From the NCBI RefSeq assembly GCF_000616095.1, contig NZ_BAMS01000001.1, forward strand, positions 1,426,001 to 1,490,000: a stretch of DNA of 64,000 bases, written 5' to 3'. Positions 12,621 to 59,136 of this stretch are shown here, one piece after another. The notes below the pieces were generated by a model. That model was given only the letters and a program-made list of their open reading frames with translations, was not told where the DNA came from and made no database searches. Each line of letters opens with the position of its first letter. Positions within the stretch are counted from its first letter, which is position 1. Origin of the DNA: Sneathiella glossodoripedis JCM 23214. GTDB taxonomy: Bacteria; Pseudomonadota; Alphaproteobacteria; Sneathiellales; Sneathiellaceae. Position numbers and translations under genes: made by a program.

Positions 12621-13715
12621 TTGAAGAACATTAAGTTTAATCAGGTAAGCAAGCGTTGGCAGGAAAGCGTTGCTGTTGAGGATATAAGTTTCGATATTCC
12701 AAAAGGCAGTTTTACTGTTTTGTTGGGACCTTCGGGCTGCGGCAAATCGACTACTTTACGTTTGCTGGCAGGGCTTGAGAGTTGTAGTGGTGGTCAAATT
12801 TTGATCGATGATGAGGATGTCACCCAACGAACACCGTCCGAGCGCAACCTATCCTTGGTGTTTCAATCCTACGCCCTGTTCCCACATCTCACTGTTGCCG
12901 AGAATATTCTCTTTGGCTTGAAGATCCGCAAGGTAAACAAAACAGAACAAGCGGCTCGATTGAAACGGGTAAGCGAGTTGTTGAATTTGCATCCATATCT
13001 GGATCGAAAACCCGCGCAGTTATCAGGTGGACAACAACAGCGAGTCGCACTCGGACGGGCGATCATTTCGGAACGACCCATTTGTTTGATGGACGAACCA
13101 TTGTCCAACCTTGATGCAAAACTTCGACACGAAATGCGCGTGGAGATCAGGGCTTTGCAACAAAAGCTTGGCATCACAATGGTTTATGTCACACACGATC
13201 AGGTTGAAGCCATTAGCATGGCAGATCAGATCGTGCTTTTAAATAATGGCAGGATTGAGCAGATCGGATCACCTTCGGAAATCTACAGTCAACCACAAAC
13301 TACTTTCGTGGCACGTTTCATCGGAACACCACCCATGAATATTATCCCTTTGCAGCAAAAAGGGAAATCACTTGCCATCGCGGGAAGTAAACAGCAGGTT
13401 CATGAATTAAGCGGCAGCATGGATATTCCGCTGTTCTTAGGCATAAGACCTGAGGATATTTCAATCGGAAAATTTGGCCTAAAAGCGCAGGTTTTAGCGT
13501 TTGAGTTTCTTGGCTCTGATGTGCTGGTTGACTGCCAGATTGGCACGGAAAAAATCACCATACGAACCGATAATCAATCCAGCTTCGCGACTGGAGAGAC
13601 CGTTTTTCTGAGCTGGAAAGACAGGGCCTGCCATTATTTCGAGCAAAATTCAGGGCGGCGAATTGATCTAATGCCAGGCGTTGCCTCGCAATTATTGAGT
13701 TCAGCTTATGAATAA
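12621..13715 (+). CDS. ugpC: ABC transporter ATPase, UgpC/MalK type
   Basis: 364 residues. Walker A GPSGCGKSTTLR, Q-loop FQSYALFPHLTV, signature LSGGQQQRVALGRAI, Walker B CLMDEPLSNLDA and the H-loop VYVTHDQVEA are all present, followed by a C-terminal TOBE-type domain (FLGIRPEDISIG) found in UgpC/MalK. It energises sugar-phosphate uptake with the binding protein and two permeases that follow. The start is TTG, no ATG being available in place. It comes first in the operon, whereas in E. coli ugpC is fourth. The first base follows a hairpin by 20 nt. Confidence 0.9.
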   Translation: MKNIKFNQVSKRWQESVAVEDISFDIPKGSFTVLLGPSGCGKSTTLRLLAGLESCSGGQILIDDEDVTQRTPSERNLSLVFQSYALFPHLTVAENILFGLKIRKVNKTEQAARLKRVSELLNLHPYLDRKPAQLSGGQQQRVALGRAIISERPICLMDEPLSNLDAKLRHEMRVEIRALQQKLGITMVYVTHDQVEAISMADQIVLLNNGRIEQIGSPSEIYSQPQTTFVARFIGTPPMNIIPLQQKGKSLAIAGSKQQVHELSGSMDIPLFLGIRPEDISIGKFGLKAQVLAFEFLGSDVLVDCQIGTEKITIRTDNQSSFATGETVFLSWKDRACHYFEQNSGRRIDLMPGVASQLLSSAYE

Positions 13716-13746
13716 GAATTCCCAACACAGAAACCTTGGAGAGAAC

Positions 13747-15035
13747 ATGTTAAAGCATTTTAAAAAAGCAGGATTGGGTATGGCAACCGCAGCGGTCGCC
13801 GTGATGACTTCGACAGCCGCGTTGGCAGTTGATCTGCAATTTTATTTCCCTGTAGCAGTTGGCGGTAAAGCCGCCAAAACAATTGAAAGCTTAACGGCTG
13901 AATATGTCGCTCAAAATCCAGATGTGACAATCGATGCGGTCTACGCGGGATCATACAGTGATACGATCACAAAGGCGCTTACAGCAGTTCGCGGAGGAAA
14001 GGCACCTCAACTATCCGTAATTCTATCAGTGGATATGTTCACGCTGATTGATGAGGATGCCATTGTTGCTTTCGATGAACTGGTGACGACTGAAGAAGAA
14101 AAACAGTGGCTAAATTCATTCTATCCAGCATTCATGGAAAATAGCCAGACTGGTGGAAAAACATATGGGATTCCCTTTCAACGGTCCACACCGGTTCTGT
14201 ATTGGAATAAGGAAGCTTTTAAGGCAGCCGGCCTCGACCCGGAAAAAGCACCAGCCAATTGGAATGAAATGGTGGAAATGGGTAAAAAACTCACAAAAAC
14301 CGACGCTTCTGGAAACGTGACACAGTGGGGCGTTCGCATTCCTTCTTCAGGTTTTCCTTACTGGCTGTTTCAGGGATTAACCACTCAAAATGATGTCATT
14401 CTTGCCAATTCAGACGGTAACAAAACCAATTTTGATGATCCAAAAGTTGTTGAAGCCCTTCAGTATGTTGTGGATTTAAGTGTTAAGCACAAAGTTATGG
14501 CGCCAGGTATTCTCGAATGGGGGACCACACCAAAAGCTTTCTTTGAAGCCAAACAGCCATGATGTGGACTTCAACCGGTAATCTTACAAACGTAAGAGAC
14601 AATGCCCCTTTTGAGTTTGGTGTTGCCATGTTACCGGCCAATAAACGACGCGGTGCACCAACTGGCGGTGGAAATTTTTACATTTTCAAAGATTCCACTG
14701 ATGAGCAGAAAAAGGCTTCGTTGGAATTTGTGAAATGGATTACTGCGCCGGAACAAGCAGCGAAATGGAGCATTGCAACGGGATATGTTGCACCGATACC
14801 GCAAGCGTGGAATACACCTGCCATGAAAGCTTATGTGAAAGATTTTCCACCTGCGTTGGTCGCTCGCGACCAGCTGGAATATGCGGTAGCCGAACTTTCA
14901 ACATACGAAAATCAGCGTATAACCAAAATTTTCAATGAAGCTTTGGAAGCTGCAATTACGGGGCAGTCTGATCCGGAAACGGCGCTCAAAACTGCGCAGG
15001 AAAAAGCTGAAAAAATCCTGAAAAACTATCGCTGA
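13747..15035 (+). pseudogene. ugpB: UgpB-like solute-binding protein, split by one missing base
   Basis: Periplasmic glycerol-3-phosphate-type binding protein. The start is taken at 13747 (GGAG upstream, MLKHFKKAGLGMATAAVAVM signal peptide, cleavage near ALA-VDLQ); an ATG at 13708 overlaps the preceding gene. The first frame ends with EWGTTPKAFFEAKQP at 14562, and the rest continues from 14559 in the next frame as MMWTSTGNLTNVRDNAPFEF through ILKNYR. One G added at about 14556 (CAGCC to CAGGCC) joins them as FEAKQAMMWTSTGNL and gives 429 residues, the normal UgpB length. Same operon as ugpC, A and E, and followed by a strong intercistronic hairpin. Confidence 0.85.
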
Positions 15036-53530: not shown

Positions 53531-53839
53531 TTATACGTTACTCAAGATGTGGATGGCTTTATCTGCAACCAGATCTTTGGATTTTTTTCCATAATCTTTC
53601 ATATGATCGGACACAGCATGAGCCATTAAAGCCTCTTTACTTTCCCATTTTTCCAAAACGGCAAAAGAATCTTCACCAAGTTTAGCCTGAAATGATCCCA
53701 TTCCTTCTGTGTCGATAGCTGCGCCATATTCAATGCAACCATCTTCTGCCCGCACAGCTGGAACATTTGCATTGAAAAGAGAGAGAAGTTCGTCACGCTT
53801 GCCGGGTTTGGCGGTAATGATTGCTACAACATTTATCAT
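53531..53839 (-). CDS. Antibiotic-biosynthesis-monooxygenase (ABM/YgiN) domain protein
   Basis: 102 residues, a single dimeric ferredoxin-like ABM domain: MINVVAIITAKPGKRDELLS, VRAEDGCIEYGAAID, and VLEKWESKEALMAHAVSDHM with the active-site-lining His. Members oxidise quinols or degrade heme; here unknown. AAGGAT precedes the ATG. Likely first gene of a unit with the crotonase. Confidence 0.88.
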   Translation of the reverse strand: MINVVAIITAKPGKRDELLSLFNANVPAVRAEDGCIEYGAAIDTEGMGSFQAKLGEDSFAVLEKWESKEALMAHAVSDHMKDYGKKSKDLVADKAIHILSNV

Positions 53840-53939
53840 CGTTTTATCCTTATTAGTTGATTGTTTGTCGCATTCGATAAAACAATATCAAATGTAGCGC
53901 TAAGCACCACTTTAATATTTTTTGCAGGCGGCCACGTAT

Positions 53940-54060
53940 TTACTTGAATGTGTTTTCGTCATTGAATTTGTCGATGGCGATATTGACGGTTTCAATAATT
54001 TTACCGTTCACTTCGGAATTCCATATACAGCGAACAGATGTTGCCTTCGTCGTTTGAAAC
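53940..54060 (-). pseudogene. Remnant of a periplasmic binding-protein gene (C-terminal end only)
   Basis: On the minus strand this stretch reads FQTTKATSVRCIWNSE then VNGKIIETVNIAIDKFNDEN and TFK-stop. It lines up with the end of the intact SBP_bac_3 gene at 56162-56926 (SYEITATPVRLVCRNSEETD, RFIKSVNIAIDKFNGDDTLQ). DNA at 53960-53989 matches 56227-56256 at 29 of 30 bases. There is no start and no upstream half; the end of the MocR gene lies immediately before it. This is a real gene fragment, not a frame error. Confidence 0.75.
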
Positions 54061-54071
54061 GCTTGGAGATC

Positions 54072-55403
54072 TTACTCTTTCTTGCTTTCAAAGAGAGACG
54101 TAAGAACGCCGCAGGCGGCCATTAGTTCGTCTGGAGTGGGCGGGGCTAATGCAAGCCTCACGAAGTTTGGCGCGTGCCCCCGTGTGACCGCAAATGCGGA
54201 ACCTGGCGTAATCGCGATACCCAAATCTTTTGCGGCTTGGGCATAGCTTTCGGCCCTCCAATGTGCAGGTAAGTGTATTACCAGATGATACGCAAGAGGG
54301 TTCGCTGTAATTCTCAACCTTTTCAACTTCGCCTGAACGAGGGATTGTCGGTTTTGCGCATCAGCACGCTTTTCGGCTATTAGGACTTGCGCGCTGCCAT
54401 TCAAAAGACATCTCACACCAAACTCAAGGGAGAAGCGTTGTGGTGCCCAAGCGCCTGACTTCAAGGCAGTAGCCATCGGTTCAATTAAATGCTTTGGGAC
54501 GCTTGCAAATCCGAACGAAAGGCCAGGGGAAATAATCTTTGAAAGACTATTCACGACAATAACTTTGTCGGGTGCAAATGCCGCTAGCGGAGGGGGTGCG
54601 TTTTCATCCAGAAACGCATAAATTCTATCTTCCACTGCAACAGGAGCGCCGGGTTGGTTAAGAATTTTAGCGATTTCGGATCTGCGTTGTGCGCTCATAG
54701 TGTGGCCTAGTGGGTTCTGTAATGTAGGTTGCAGATAGACCGCATGCAGAGGTGTACCACGATGTATTTGTTCAAGCCGATCCGGACGCATGCCTTCGTT
54801 GTCACATGCCACGGGCACCGCTTTTACCCCCAGTCTCGCGGCGATAGCGACTGCAACTGGATAGCTTGTTTCCTCAAACCCAATTCTACCACCTATGGGG
54901 GCAAGCGCAGAAAATGCTCCTGCGATCGACTGGCGCCCATTGCCAGAGAATAGAAATGAGTCCGGCTCAGGGTTCCAATCCTGACTGGACGATGCCGTCG
55001 CAACGGCACCCTTGGCGTGCTCATCACCCAACACTGTCGCTGCCTGCATCGCGGTGTGTAATACATCATCCCGCGAAGCCAATGTTGCTAGAATTGGTGC
55101 GAGCAATTGGTGCTGATCTGGCAGTATTGGATAGTTAGATTCCATATTAATGCTAATCTGTCTTGGTTCAGCCAGCGTGGGTTCATAGCGCGGCGATGTT
55201 GCTCGGACGAAAGTGCCACGGCCAACTTCACCGTCGATTAGACCAAGACGTTTGAGTTCAGCATATACCCGCCCCGCTGTAGATGGAGCTATTCCCTTTT
55301 CATAAGCGAAAATCCGTTGAGGCGGCAGACGATCTCCAGGAAGGAGGTGGCCTGCAGCGATGTTTGCCGCAACTTCTTTCGCAATCTTTCGATAGTCAGT
55401 CAT
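54072..55403 (-). CDS. MocR-type (GntR HTH + aminotransferase) regulator
   Basis: 443 residues. The N-terminal GntR winged helix (KIAKEVAANIAAGHLLPGDR, then LPPQRIFAYEKGIAPSTAGR and VYAELKRLGLIDGEVGRGTF) is fused to a class I aminotransferase fold with the PLP-lysine in VNSLSKIISPGLSFGF and YLQPTLQNPLGHTMS before it. Such PdxR/GabR-like proteins sense PLP or amino compounds. Divergent from the DJ-1 gene over direct repeats, so it probably controls that gene. The pair is flanked by direct repeats of a binding-protein gene. Confidence 0.9.
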   Translation of the reverse strand: MTDYRKIAKEVAANIAAGHLLPGDRLPPQRIFAYEKGIAPSTAGRVYAELKRLGLIDGEVGRGTFVRATSPRYEPTLAEPRQISINMESNYPILPDQHQLLAPILATLASRDDVLHTAMQAATVLGDEHAKGAVATASSSQDWNPEPDSFLFSGNGRQSIAGAFSALAPIGGRIGFEETSYPVAVAIAARLGVKAVPVACDNEGMRPDRLEQIHRGTPLHAVYLQPTLQNPLGHTMSAQRRSEIAKILNQPGAPVAVEDRIYAFLDENAPPPLAAFAPDKVIVVNSLSKIISPGLSFGFASVPKHLIEPMATALKSGAWAPQRFSLEFGVRCLLNGSAQVLIAEKRADAQNRQSLVQAKLKRLRITANPLAYHLVIHLPAHWRAESYAQAAKDLGIAITPGSAFAVTRGHAPNFVRLALAPPTPDELMAACGVLTSLFESKKE

Positions 55404-55406
55404 TAA

Positions 55407-55439
55407 ATTGCACCGAGTACATTGTAATTATTGCACCGA
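55407..55439. promoter_or_regulatory. Direct repeat operator between MocR and DJ-1 genes
   Basis: ATTGCACCGA occurs at 55407-55416 and again at 55430-55439, same orientation, 23 bp apart (about two helical turns). MocR regulators are known to bind direct repeats, so this is the likely operator. Confidence 0.6.
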
Positions 55440-55498
55440 TATTCAGCATGTGACGTTATCGGTGTTTAGTAAAGTTTGGAATTAAGGAATTTACACCA

Positions 55499-56101
55499 AT
55501 GCAGATAGCAATACTCACATTCGATGGCTTCAATGAACTGGACTCTTTTATTGCATCAGGGATTCTCAACAGAATGAGGCCAAAAGGATGGAAAGCATTT
55601 ATTACCAGCCCATCGGAATCTGTGACCTCTATGAACGGGGTTACTGTTCAGGCAGAGCGACCCTTAGAGTTCGCATCGCGTGCGGATGCGGTTCTTATTG
55701 GTAGCGGTATGAAAACACGAGAGATTGTTCAAAATCGGGACCTGCTTGGCCGAATTCGACTTGACCCGGAAAGTCAAATCATCGGAGCGCAGTGTTCAGG
55801 AACACTAATCCTCTCCAAACTCGGACTTGTCGATGACTTGCCGGTTTGCACAGACCTCACGACGAAACCCTGGGTCGTCGAAGCTGGTGTTAGAGTGCTT
55901 GATCAACCATTCTACGCCAATGGTAATATCGGCACCGCTGGAGGATGCCTCGCGTCTCAATATCTTGCTGCTTGGGTGATAATGCACGGGGGTAGTAGAG
56001 AGGATGCGCGGGCAGCTCTTCATTATGTGGCTCCTGTGGGTCAAAAAGATGAGTATGTGACCCGAGCGATCGAAACAGTGAGCTCGTTTCTGCCCAAATG
56101 A
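55499..56101 (+). CDS. DJ-1/PfpI-family glutamine-amidotransferase-like protein
   Basis: 200 residues. MQIAILTFDGFNELDSFIAS is the family's start, with the conserved Glu (NELD), and IIGAQCSGTLILSKLGLVDD holds the nucleophile-elbow Cys (AQCSG) of class I amidotransferase-like folds. Members include isocyanide hydratases, chaperones and proteases; InhA/isonitrile hydratase-like is a fair guess because of the DFFIASG-type start. AAGGAA precedes the ATG. Likely the regulated target of the divergent MocR. Confidence 0.87.
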   Translation: MQIAILTFDGFNELDSFIASGILNRMRPKGWKAFITSPSESVTSMNGVTVQAERPLEFASRADAVLIGSGMKTREIVQNRDLLGRIRLDPESQIIGAQCSGTLILSKLGLVDDLPVCTDLTTKPWVVEAGVRVLDQPFYANGNIGTAGGCLASQYLAAWVIMHGGSREDARAALHYVAPVGQKDEYVTRAIETVSSFLPK

Positions 56102-56161
56102 CCTCTTTAATTTGAAAGCGGCAAAGCATCTTTAAAGGTTCTAATTCGAACCTTCACGGAT

Positions 56162-56926
56162 CTAATTTAACGGTAATAGGGATGGAATATTTAGATGTCC
56201 CAGTATTTTTTGCAGTGTGTCGTCGCCATTGAATTTGTCGATGGCGATGTTGACGGATTTAATAAATCTATCAGTTTCCTCAGAATTTCGGCACACGAGC
56301 CTTACGGGTGTGGCAGTAATCTCATAGGAAACAGAAAGATTGCCGGTGTTGATTGAATAATTTTTCATAGTGATGAAGATATCCGGTGTCCATGCGAGTA
56401 TCGCATCTACTCTTCTGTTTTTGATGAGCCGGATTTTTGTGTCCTGATCAGGTACCAGCATAACTTTTGCACCTAATGAACGCAGCTTTTCTTCCATATG
56501 GGATCCATTCAACAGGGCAACGTTTTTGTTCTTCAGCTCAGAAAGGTCATTTAACTTTGGTTCGTCAATATGGGTGATGACGATATGAGAGCTGTTAAAC
56601 ACAGCGCTGGACTCTAAAAATCTTTCGTTGCTTTGCATAAGTTTGTTTAGCAATTGAGCATCCAGTGCCCAGACACAATCAATCTGGCGGGACTGAAATT
56701 CGCGGATTAGTCGGCGCAGGGGAAGGACTTTAAAAGTAAAGTGGTTTTCTTTGCCAGACATAAGTGCATTTAGAATATCAGGGTATATCCCCGTGTTATC
56801 CAATGTCTGAATTCCATCGCCAAGCTCTGGTGACGAAATCCTGATAACTTGTTCAGCCTCTTCATTAGAGTAGGCGGGGAAACACGTAAGAAAGATTATG
56901 GGTATCATCAATAGAAAACGCATCAC
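56162..56926 (-). CDS. Periplasmic SBP_bac_3-like protein, orphan
   Basis: 254 residues with an N-terminal signal peptide (MRFLLMIPIIFLTCFPAYSN, cleavage near YSN-EEA). IRISSPELGDGIQTLDNTGI and YPDILNALMSGKENHFTFKV, RQIDCVWALDAQLLNKLM and LAWTPDIFITMKNYSIN follow the type-3 binding-protein fold. No transporter genes adjacent. Its C-terminal 40 residues also occur as a 110-bp remnant at 53940-54060, on the other side of the MocR/DJ-1 pair. The ligand is unknown. Confidence 0.78.
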   Translation of the reverse strand: MMRFLLMIPIIFLTCFPAYSNEEAEQVIRISSPELGDGIQTLDNTGIYPDILNALMSGKENHFTFKVLPLRRLIREFQSRQIDCVWALDAQLLNKLMQSNERFLESSAVFNSSHIVITHIDEPKLNDLSELKNKNVALLNGSHMEEKLRSLGAKVMLVPDQDTKIRLIKNRRVDAILAWTPDIFITMKNYSINTGNLSVSYEITATPVRLVCRNSEETDRFIKSVNIAIDKFNGDDTLQKILGHLNIPSLLPLN

Positions 56927-57177
56927 CGCTCAATCCATCTTGATAGGTATGGGGGAGTAAGACATTATATTAGTTTTAATTGGAATAATTCAAGAATGAG
57001 AGGCTCAAATAAACTGGCCAAACTGAAAACGGGGTGACTTTGAAGTTCTCAAAAGTGAGTCATCGCAGGGCAGAATTTGAAATTCCGGCCGGTTAAATAT
57101 TTTTCAGATTATTGAAATGTTTAACATTTATTCACTCTCTCGCATTAATAGGACTATATTGTAGTTGTGGGTGAGGG

Positions 57178-59136
57178 GTGTCGGGGTCCTTCCTGTTTAA
57201 ATTGGGTCCATCCTTGGCAAGTGGGATATCAGGAAGTCTGATGGTTATAGGGGAAATTATACTTTTTTTATGCATCGCGTTTTGCTTTGTCTTTTTTGCG
57301 CTGCGTATGAAACGCTACAGGCGTATTCACAAAGGGGTTAGCTTTATTACAGTTGGGCTTGCACTCGTTGCGCTAGGTGCATTGATCGATGCACTCTTCA
57401 TGGGGCCAAATATTTTGTATGCCCCTATGGAAATCAGCAAACGTGTATCTGAACTGTATGTGGTGTTCGCCTATTTGCCAGGCACACTTTCGGTTGCGAT
57501 TGGCGTTGCCGTGTTCTTTCCCGCTGTGTCCCGTCTGACCGAAGAAATTGATAGAAGTGATCAGATTACACGCAGGCTGAAATCACAAGCTGAGGATCTG
57601 CAGGCTGCAAAGCGTAGAGCAGAGGCAGCCGAGGATGTTCTTTTTGAAGCACTTGAATCCATCTCGGAAGCCTTCATCATTTTTGATGAGGAAGATCGTG
57701 TTGTCGCTTTTAACTCAAGATATCGTGACCTTTTCGAAGATGTCGGCGATGCATTGCAACCGGGCGTGACTTTTGAAGAATTGATCCGCCATCAGGCTGC
57801 AGTCCAAAATAGTTTTGACGATCCAGCAGAGCTTGAAGAGTGGATTGAAAAACGCCTAAATGAACACAGAAACCCCGTTGGCTCCCGTGAGCAGGTTTTT
57901 GGTAATGGCGATGTTTACCGATTGACTGAGGTTAAAACACCATCTGGTGGGACTGTGGCTGTTCGTACAAACATTACTGATTTGCGAACTCGTGAAAAAG
58001 CCTTGAGGGTTATTAACGAACGTCTGCAAGAAGCTCAGTTGGTCGCTCATATTGGGCATTGGTCCTATGATATTAAAAATGACCGCCATGACTGGTCCGA
58101 TGAAATTTCCCGTATCATGGGCTATGACCCCGATACGCTCGAAGTGAAAACCTCTGCCTATTTAGCGCGGGTACATCCCGAAGATCTTGAGCATATGCGT
58201 TCCGTTGTGAGGCAAGCACAGCAAAGTGAACAGGATTACGAACTGGATTATCGGATGGTTCGCCCCAACGGGGAAATTGTCCATGTCCGTGAGATTGGCA
58301 GGGTGCAAAAAGACGAAAACGGAGAGACCGAGTTTTACAGAGGAACAATTCAGGACATTAGTGCGCAATATGAGGCTCAGATGGAGCTTCTTGATGCGAA
58401 AATGAAAGCTGAAGAAGGGACTAAGGCAAAATCCCTGTTCCTTGCAAATATGAGCCATGAATTGCGAACTCCGCTCAATGCCATTATTGGTTTTGCTGAA
58501 GTCATTACAAAAGAAATTTTTGGACCGATCAATAATGACAAATATCGGGAATATTCGGGTAACATTCTGGCATCAGGTCAACATCTGTTGTCTTTGATAA
58601 ACGATATTCTTGATTTTTCCCGTTTGGAAGCCGGGAAATACGAACTTGAAGAAGAAGACGTCGATGTCCAATCAGTTGTCAAATGGACGGAGCTTTTATT
58701 GGCATCCAAGGCGCTGGAGAAGGATATTCGTCTTACCTATGATGTCCCTGATGATTTGATATTTATTGGTGATGAGCGAAAATTCAAACAGGTATTGATC
58801 AACCTGACGAATAACGCCATCAAATTCACGCCTAACTCTGGTGAGATCCATATTTTTACTGAAACTCGTCATCCCGCATATTTCAGCCTTTTTGTGAGGG
58901 ATAACGGAATCGGTATTGAAGAACATGAGCTTGAGATGGTGATGAAACCGTTTGTGCGTACCTTGAACTCTCAAACACGCTCAATTGAAGGTACGGGGCT
59001 TGGCCTTCCGCTTTCCAAGTCGATCATAGAGCTACACGGCGGAGAACTGCTGATTGAGAGCCAGATTGATCACGGGACCTGCGTAGAAATCAGGATACCA
59101 AAAACACTTTGTAAAAAACTTGCAAAAAGTGCTTGA
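57178..59136 (+). CDS. Membrane-bound sensor histidine kinase (PAS-PAS-HisKA-HATPase)
   Basis: 652 residues. Three hydrophobic helices at the start (VIGEIILFLCIAFCFVFFAL, GLALVALGALIDALFMG, LPGTLSVAIGVAVFF), a short coiled coil (RRLKSQAEDLQAAKRRAEAA), a PAS domain about 158-270 (EALESISEAFIIFDEEDRVV), a PAS_3 domain about 280-400 (VAHIGHWSYDIKNDRHDWSD), HisKA with His427 (SHELRTPLNAIIGFAEVITK), and HATPase (LINLTNNAIKFTPN, DNGIGIEEHE, GTGLGLPLSK). GTG start at 57178 after GAGGG. No response regulator follows; an alphaproteobacterial orphan kinase. Confidence 0.9.
   Translation: MSGSFLFKLGPSLASGISGSLMVIGEIILFLCIAFCFVFFALRMKRYRRIHKGVSFITVGLALVALGALIDALFMGPNILYAPMEISKRVSELYVVFAYLPGTLSVAIGVAVFFPAVSRLTEEIDRSDQITRRLKSQAEDLQAAKRRAEAAEDVLFEALESISEAFIIFDEEDRVVAFNSRYRDLFEDVGDALQPGVTFEELIRHQAAVQNSFDDPAELEEWIEKRLNEHRNPVGSREQVFGNGDVYRLTEVKTPSGGTVAVRTNITDLRTREKALRVINERLQEAQLVAHIGHWSYDIKNDRHDWSDEISRIMGYDPDTLEVKTSAYLARVHPEDLEHMRSVVRQAQQSEQDYELDYRMVRPNGEIVHVREIGRVQKDENGETEFYRGTIQDISAQYEAQMELLDAKMKAEEGTKAKSLFLANMSHELRTPLNAIIGFAEVITKEIFGPINNDKYREYSGNILASGQHLLSLINDILDFSRLEAGKYELEEEDVDVQSVVKWTELLLASKALEKDIRLTYDVPDDLIFIGDERKFKQVLINLTNNAIKFTPNSGEIHIFTETRHPAYFSLFVRDNGIGIEEHELEMVMKPFVRTLNSQTRSIEGTGLGLPLSKSIIELHGGELLIESQIDHGTCVEIRIPKTLCKKLAKSA

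Follow-up and report, generated by a model that had tools for sequence, protein, structure and literature searches.

A MocR regulator and a divergent DJ-1-family gene, a candidate mobile unit, between a binding-protein-like gene and a decayed copy of its end in Sneathiella glossodoripedis

Genes of the locus and the repeated gene end

The 64,000-nucleotide stretch of the Sneathiella glossodoripedis JCM 23214 genome analysed here (the window; contig NZ_BAMS01000001.1, positions 1,426,001 to 1,490,000) carries a block of roughly 3.3 kb between an ABM-domain monooxygenase gene and a PAS histidine kinase gene (Table 1). As the sequence-only reading had described, a gene for a MocR-type regulator, a short direct repeat and a divergent gene for a DJ-1/PfpI-family protein (DJ-1) are bracketed in this block by two copies of sequence from a periplasmic-binding-protein-like (SBP) gene, one of them a fragment. 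The start of the histidine kinase gene was placed at ATG 57241 by comparison with a related locus (L081), judged by eye.

Table 1. Position of the features between and including the two conserved flanking genes (window coordinates)
Feature	Position	Strand	Remarks
ABM-domain monooxygenase gene, conserved left flank	53531..53839	-	65-78% identity across relatives
SBP-end fragment, apparently a decayed partial copy	53887..54047	-	Core 53936-54020 firm, flanks less so; 76% identity over 85 nt, translation similar in frame, internal TAA; alignment score 98 against a shuffle maximum of 39
MocR-type regulator, 443 aa	54072..55403	-	GntR helix-turn-helix and aminotransferase-like domain
Predicted MocR operator, TCGGTGCAAT-N13-TCGGTGCAAT	55407..55439	-	Boxes at a 23-bp period, 3 bp before the start codon of MocR
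Presumed target, a DJ-1/PfpI-family protein of 200 aa encoded divergently from MocR	55499..56101	+	PF01965
Orphan periplasmic-binding-protein-like gene (SBP), source of the duplicated end	56162..56926	-	Weak SBP_bac_3 similarity
PAS histidine kinase gene, conserved right flank	57241..59136	+	54-66% identity in syntenic relatives

The regulator joins a GntR winged helix to a fold-type-I aminotransferase domain, both over the Pfam cut-off (GntR, 36.3 bits; Aminotran_1_2, 45.1 bits), and the putative pyridoxal-phosphate-binding lysine, Lys289 of an SxSK motif, is invariant in the 10 proteins aligned. PdxR, GabR, TauR and EhuR, MocR regulators with divergent targets (surveyed in PMC5320631), have the same two-domain build and, as with the window MocR, a divergent neighbor as presumed target. 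However, the window MocR scores under the cut-off of every named NCBIfam type among the matches listed; its best match was EhuR (NF052286), with 284 bits against a curated cut-off of 480 bits, and it was not filed there. The divergent protein belongs to the DJ-1/PfpI superfamily (PF01965, 38.1 bits against a cut-off of 26.6 bits), with the nucleophile Cys99 and the nearby Glu13 invariant in 14 aligned proteins, and its closest solved structure by sequence is 3bhn (E 1.8e-23). It scored 23.3 bits with the glyoxalase III model (TIGR01383), below the equivalog cut-off of 131.25 bits.

The name SBP is tentative because the score with the family-3 solute-binding proteins (SBP_bac_3, PF00497), 19.9 bits, lies under the Pfam gathering cut-off of 26.4 bits, and the protein is called SBP-like only. 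It resembles that family in a weak profile match over residues 44-242 and in a similar C-terminal layout; it differs in falling under the family cut-off and in that the block contains no transporter genes. Its best outside matches reach 20-27% identity only, neither the genome-contig collection nor the plasmid collection yielded a relative, and no close relative was found within the genus. The G+C content of MocR (52%) and DJ-1 (50%) differs from that of the SBP gene (42%) and the fragment (39%), and this gap between the pair and the SBP sequences suggests separate sources.

The repeat of the SBP C-terminal end just downstream of MocR, on the same (minus) strand as the gene, is real. The local DNA alignment of fragment and gene scores 98, against 27 +/- 3.8 and a maximum of 39 in 300 dinucleotide shuffles, which rules out chance similarity. 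The core at 53936-54020 aligns with 56203-56287 of the SBP gene without gaps, whereas the likeness below 53936, toward the ABM gene, is weak and gapped and extends to about 53887; the other edge lies ~25 bp past the MocR stop codon, as read from ATSVR / ATPVR in the translations. Translated, the fragment matches SBP residues ~202-245 at 49-51%, in frame and with one TAA stop. The first reading had the fragment equal to the SBP end, and its place and a best stretch with 29 of 30 bases identical were confirmed, but the two are not equal: aligned base by base they are homologous at only 76% over 85 nt, and 26 of the 96 codon-aligned bases differ (27%). The 30-mer of the best stretch was found nowhere else in this genome and was absent from all 26 relatives searched; being confined to these two places, it is neither a dispersed repeat nor an attachment site. 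Derivation from another SBP family member is likewise ruled out, since the neighboring SBP is by far the closest among the family members compared and shares with the fragment the motif VNIAIDKFN, which is not kept in other SBPs. The same two observations indicate that the fragment is a partial copy of the neighboring SBP gene and, judged from these alignments, it appears to be an old, decayed partial second copy. The repeat is too diverged for a fresh target duplication, and by itself it is ordinary gene debris. Differences between the two copies are distributed 7:7:12 over the codon positions (p 0.38), and the replacements are only mildly conservative (BLOSUM p 0.11-0.18). Matches in a near-identical 36-nt core are clustered beyond chance (p 0.015), for which a short gene-conversion tract is one possible source.

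The predicted operator and the mobility of the MocR/DJ-1 pair

The window genome contains a single site with the operator pattern, two TCGGTGCAAT boxes in direct orientation, and comparative evidence supports the prediction that MocR has a direct-repeat operator at its own promoter. The operator recurs in front of most MocRs of the same clade, with 17-20 of the 20 positions conserved in 10 of 14: all 20 in Acetobacter aceti and Rhizobium sp. 007; 19 in Rhizobium leguminosarum, Ensifer, Streptomyces NBC_01727 and a genome of the Sneathiella group (G005); 18 in Microvirga and Phyllobacterium; and 17 in G039. The sites of Nonomuraea and S. atratus fit better at a period of 24 (18 positions each), and those of Methylobacterium (16) and Sulfitobacter (15) are weaker. 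When the class sample was scanned with the pattern, five genomes matched besides that of the window; in four of them the site directly precedes a MocR homolog, and the fifth match is at locus L204. Most homologs also have an inverted half-site between the two boxes, and a motif of two direct boxes plus one inverted repeat is reported to be the commonest structure for MocR regulators (PMC5320631). The main text of that regulon survey contains neither TTGCAC nor ThiJ/PfpI. A literature search for the operator word returned only unrelated-looking papers among the matches listed, and among the papers searched none links MocR to DJ-1 and PfpI, PfpI to Tn3 passenger genes, or MocR to Sneathiella.

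The clade spans Alphaproteobacteria to actinomycetes, and most of its tested members have the operator. The divergent gene, by contrast, differs and may encode a DJ-1 protein, a TauE/SafE-type exporter, a small unnamed protein (G005), an alpha/beta hydrolase or a DinB-like protein. At five loci (L192, L195, L197, L199 and L206), rhizobial and related MocRs that share the operator face a TauE/SafE-type exporter, recognized from the annotation in L197 and from the translated sequence in the other four; this is a recurrent alternative target set. At L197 it is accompanied by a small DUF1127 protein. A divergent MocR/DJ-1 pair in the relative G012 was ruled out as the same unit, its MocR being outside the clade and the operator missing.

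In the MocR tree, the window protein and that of A. aceti are sisters (94/93) within a clade supported at 100/100 and lie apart from most other Sneathiella MocRs. The DJ-1 tree, with modest support (80/89), groups the window protein with plasmid-borne and other-order proteins (70-76%) and with that of one congener; the DJ-1 proteins of most congeners (51-58% to the window protein) fall outside this group. Elsewhere, a Sphingomonas plasmid (L201:1659-3130) carries a DJ-1 relative (65%) in an operon with a PhzF-type gene, facing a distant MocR-like regulator without an operator of the window type.

The closest intact pair was found when the plasmids were searched with the DNA of the block, which matched pAACEN1, a conjugative plasmid of A. 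aceti, with 67% nucleotide identity from the start of MocR through the intergenic region and DJ-1. The two pairs have the same divergent order (MocR 50% and DJ-1 72.5% identical) and identical operator boxes at the same 23-bp period. On pAACEN1, however, genes for a resolvase and a Tn3 transposase come next after the pair, and all four genes are enclosed by 39-bp inverted repeats (97%; L208 9896-9934 and 15866-15904), with GGTTC at both flanks, read from the printed sequence as a 5-bp target duplication. With the features expected of such an element (terminal repeats of about 38 bp, a Tn3 transposase, a resolvase and a 5-bp target duplication), L208:9896-15904 is a complete Tn3-family transposon that carries MocR/DJ-1 as cargo, and it was the only copy seen in the plasmid collection. 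The window copy differs in having no long terminal repeats, no end of the A. aceti type at its borders, and neither a transposase open reading frame nor an integrase in the block. Moreover, it is flanked by SBP sequences, whereas the A. aceti unit has no SBP piece. The presence of a sister switch on an Acetobacter plasmid transposon points to MocR, operator and DJ-1 as a small traveling regulatory unit. The earlier suggestion that the pair may be a mobile regulator-target cassette thus gained support, and the three elements together look mobile, as a unit that probably moves horizontally.

By analogy with known MocR systems, a MocR dimer would bridge the two boxes, about two helical turns apart, beside its own start codon, repressing its own gene and switching the divergent DJ-1 gene from the shared intergenic region. 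The signal may be a pyridoxal-phosphate-linked amine or amino acid, and DJ-1 may act as a cysteine-dependent enzyme. We put forward, tentatively and as somewhat less than an even chance, that this MocR clade with its one operator (two boxes at a 23-bp period) and its swapped target moves between replicons as a portable switch, once as cargo of a Tn3 transposon. These findings tie a so far uncharacterized MocR clade to a specific predicted operator and to a DJ-1-type enzyme, and show a regulator-target pair traveling as a unit on a transposon. They also offer a clean case for how bacteria rewire small metabolic switches, in which regulator and docking site stay constant and the controlled gene varies.

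The site in relatives and the origin of the block

Among the syntenic relatives found through the ABM gene are Sneathiella chinensis and two MAGs, one from a Sneathiella sp. and one from the Sneathiellales. The ABM and histidine kinase genes are directly adjacent in six relatives (G006, G008, G012, G011, G004 and L102), of which two were assigned to Sneathiella or Sneathiellales. Measured up to the first aligned kinase residue, the spacers are 229-824 bp (0.23-0.82 kb) long. Since the two genes are neighbors in all six, and neither fragment, MocR, DJ-1 nor SBP lies at the site in any of them, the window genome has the entire block in addition. The 0.82-kb spacer of G011 contains a 111-aa open reading frame. 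In three further genomes (G015, L105 and G005, the last put together from two contigs), the same place is occupied by genes for a DeoR regulator and for an ABC transporter whose binding protein is not the one of the window. Empty in some relatives and filled by this cassette in three, the ABM-kinase junction is a variable slot (window 53840-57240; L086, L105, L087/L088 and L084). Alignment of the spacers did not give exact insertion borders, the intergenic DNA being too diverged beyond ~27 bp upstream of ABM. Elsewhere in the window (13708-15035), the binding-protein gene of an ABC cassette resembling the one in the G015 slot is split into two frames near 14556, by either a frameshift or a sequencing error.

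The best explanation overall, which we hold with a little better than even confidence, is that the block occupies the ABM-kinase slot as a composite, in which a horizontally moving MocR/DJ-1 unit, with MocR switching DJ-1, would lie beside a fragment left by tandem duplication of the SBP gene. We infer a past tandem duplication of the SBP gene, in which the copy on the ABM side was deprived of its first ~200 codons at or before the time at which MocR/DJ-1 came between the copies; the direct repeat would thus be a remnant of gene duplication and not an insertion scar. Several points stand against this explanation: the clustering of matches in the near-identical 36-nt core goes beyond what simple decay explains, the codon-position and substitution tests do not show the fragment to be a former working gene, the window copy has no transposon ends, and the DJ-1 clade has modest support. 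Relatives with full-length SBP genes on both sides of the pair, which had been named as the mark of simple duplication followed by decay, were not seen, and no genome with two full SBP copies, or with the SBP gene alone, was found.

Alternatively, the block as a whole may have been put together outside this genome and have entered the ABM-kinase slot as a single DNA island, in which case the fragment would be uninformative on events here. That the slot takes different cassettes, as the DeoR-ABC genes in three genomes illustrate, fits such an arrival, as do the six relatives with no part of the block at the site and the SBP without a close relative in the genus. However, no donor with the same gene order turned up on plasmids or in 385 genomes of the class, and the differing G+C of the pair and of the SBP sequences suggests that they had separate sources. 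We regard this course of events as unlikely, at somewhat under one chance in four.

A further possibility, and one we rate as more doubtful still, is that the pair was inserted through the SBP end and left the repeat behind, as the sequence-only reading had proposed. In that case, one crossover would have carried a circle or cassette with MocR/DJ-1 and a short SBP 3' end into a lone SBP gene, or its entry would have produced a long target duplication. Around the insert there would then be a full SBP gene and a 3' fragment in direct orientation, and the unit could be excised again if the repeats recombined. The geometry fits, with the full gene at one end and the 3' fragment at the other, its edge close to the MocR stop; the near-identical core fits as well, and the pair is mobile elsewhere. 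However, the two SBP copies differ at more than a quarter of their bases, the A. aceti unit travels without an SBP piece, and the window copy has neither integrase nor terminal repeat. The uninterrupted SBP gene predicted for relatives missing the pair was not found, these relatives lacking SBP and fragment at the site as well, and SBP without MocR/DJ-1 occurred in no genome searched. Arrival by recombination within the SBP gene end is therefore not supported.

We give very little credence to an ancestral origin of the block followed by its loss from the other lineages: the slot is variable, so loss does occur, and a DJ-1 with 75% identity is present elsewhere in one congener, but several independent losses would be needed, and both MocR and DJ-1 resemble genes from other orders more closely than they resemble their counterparts in most congeners.
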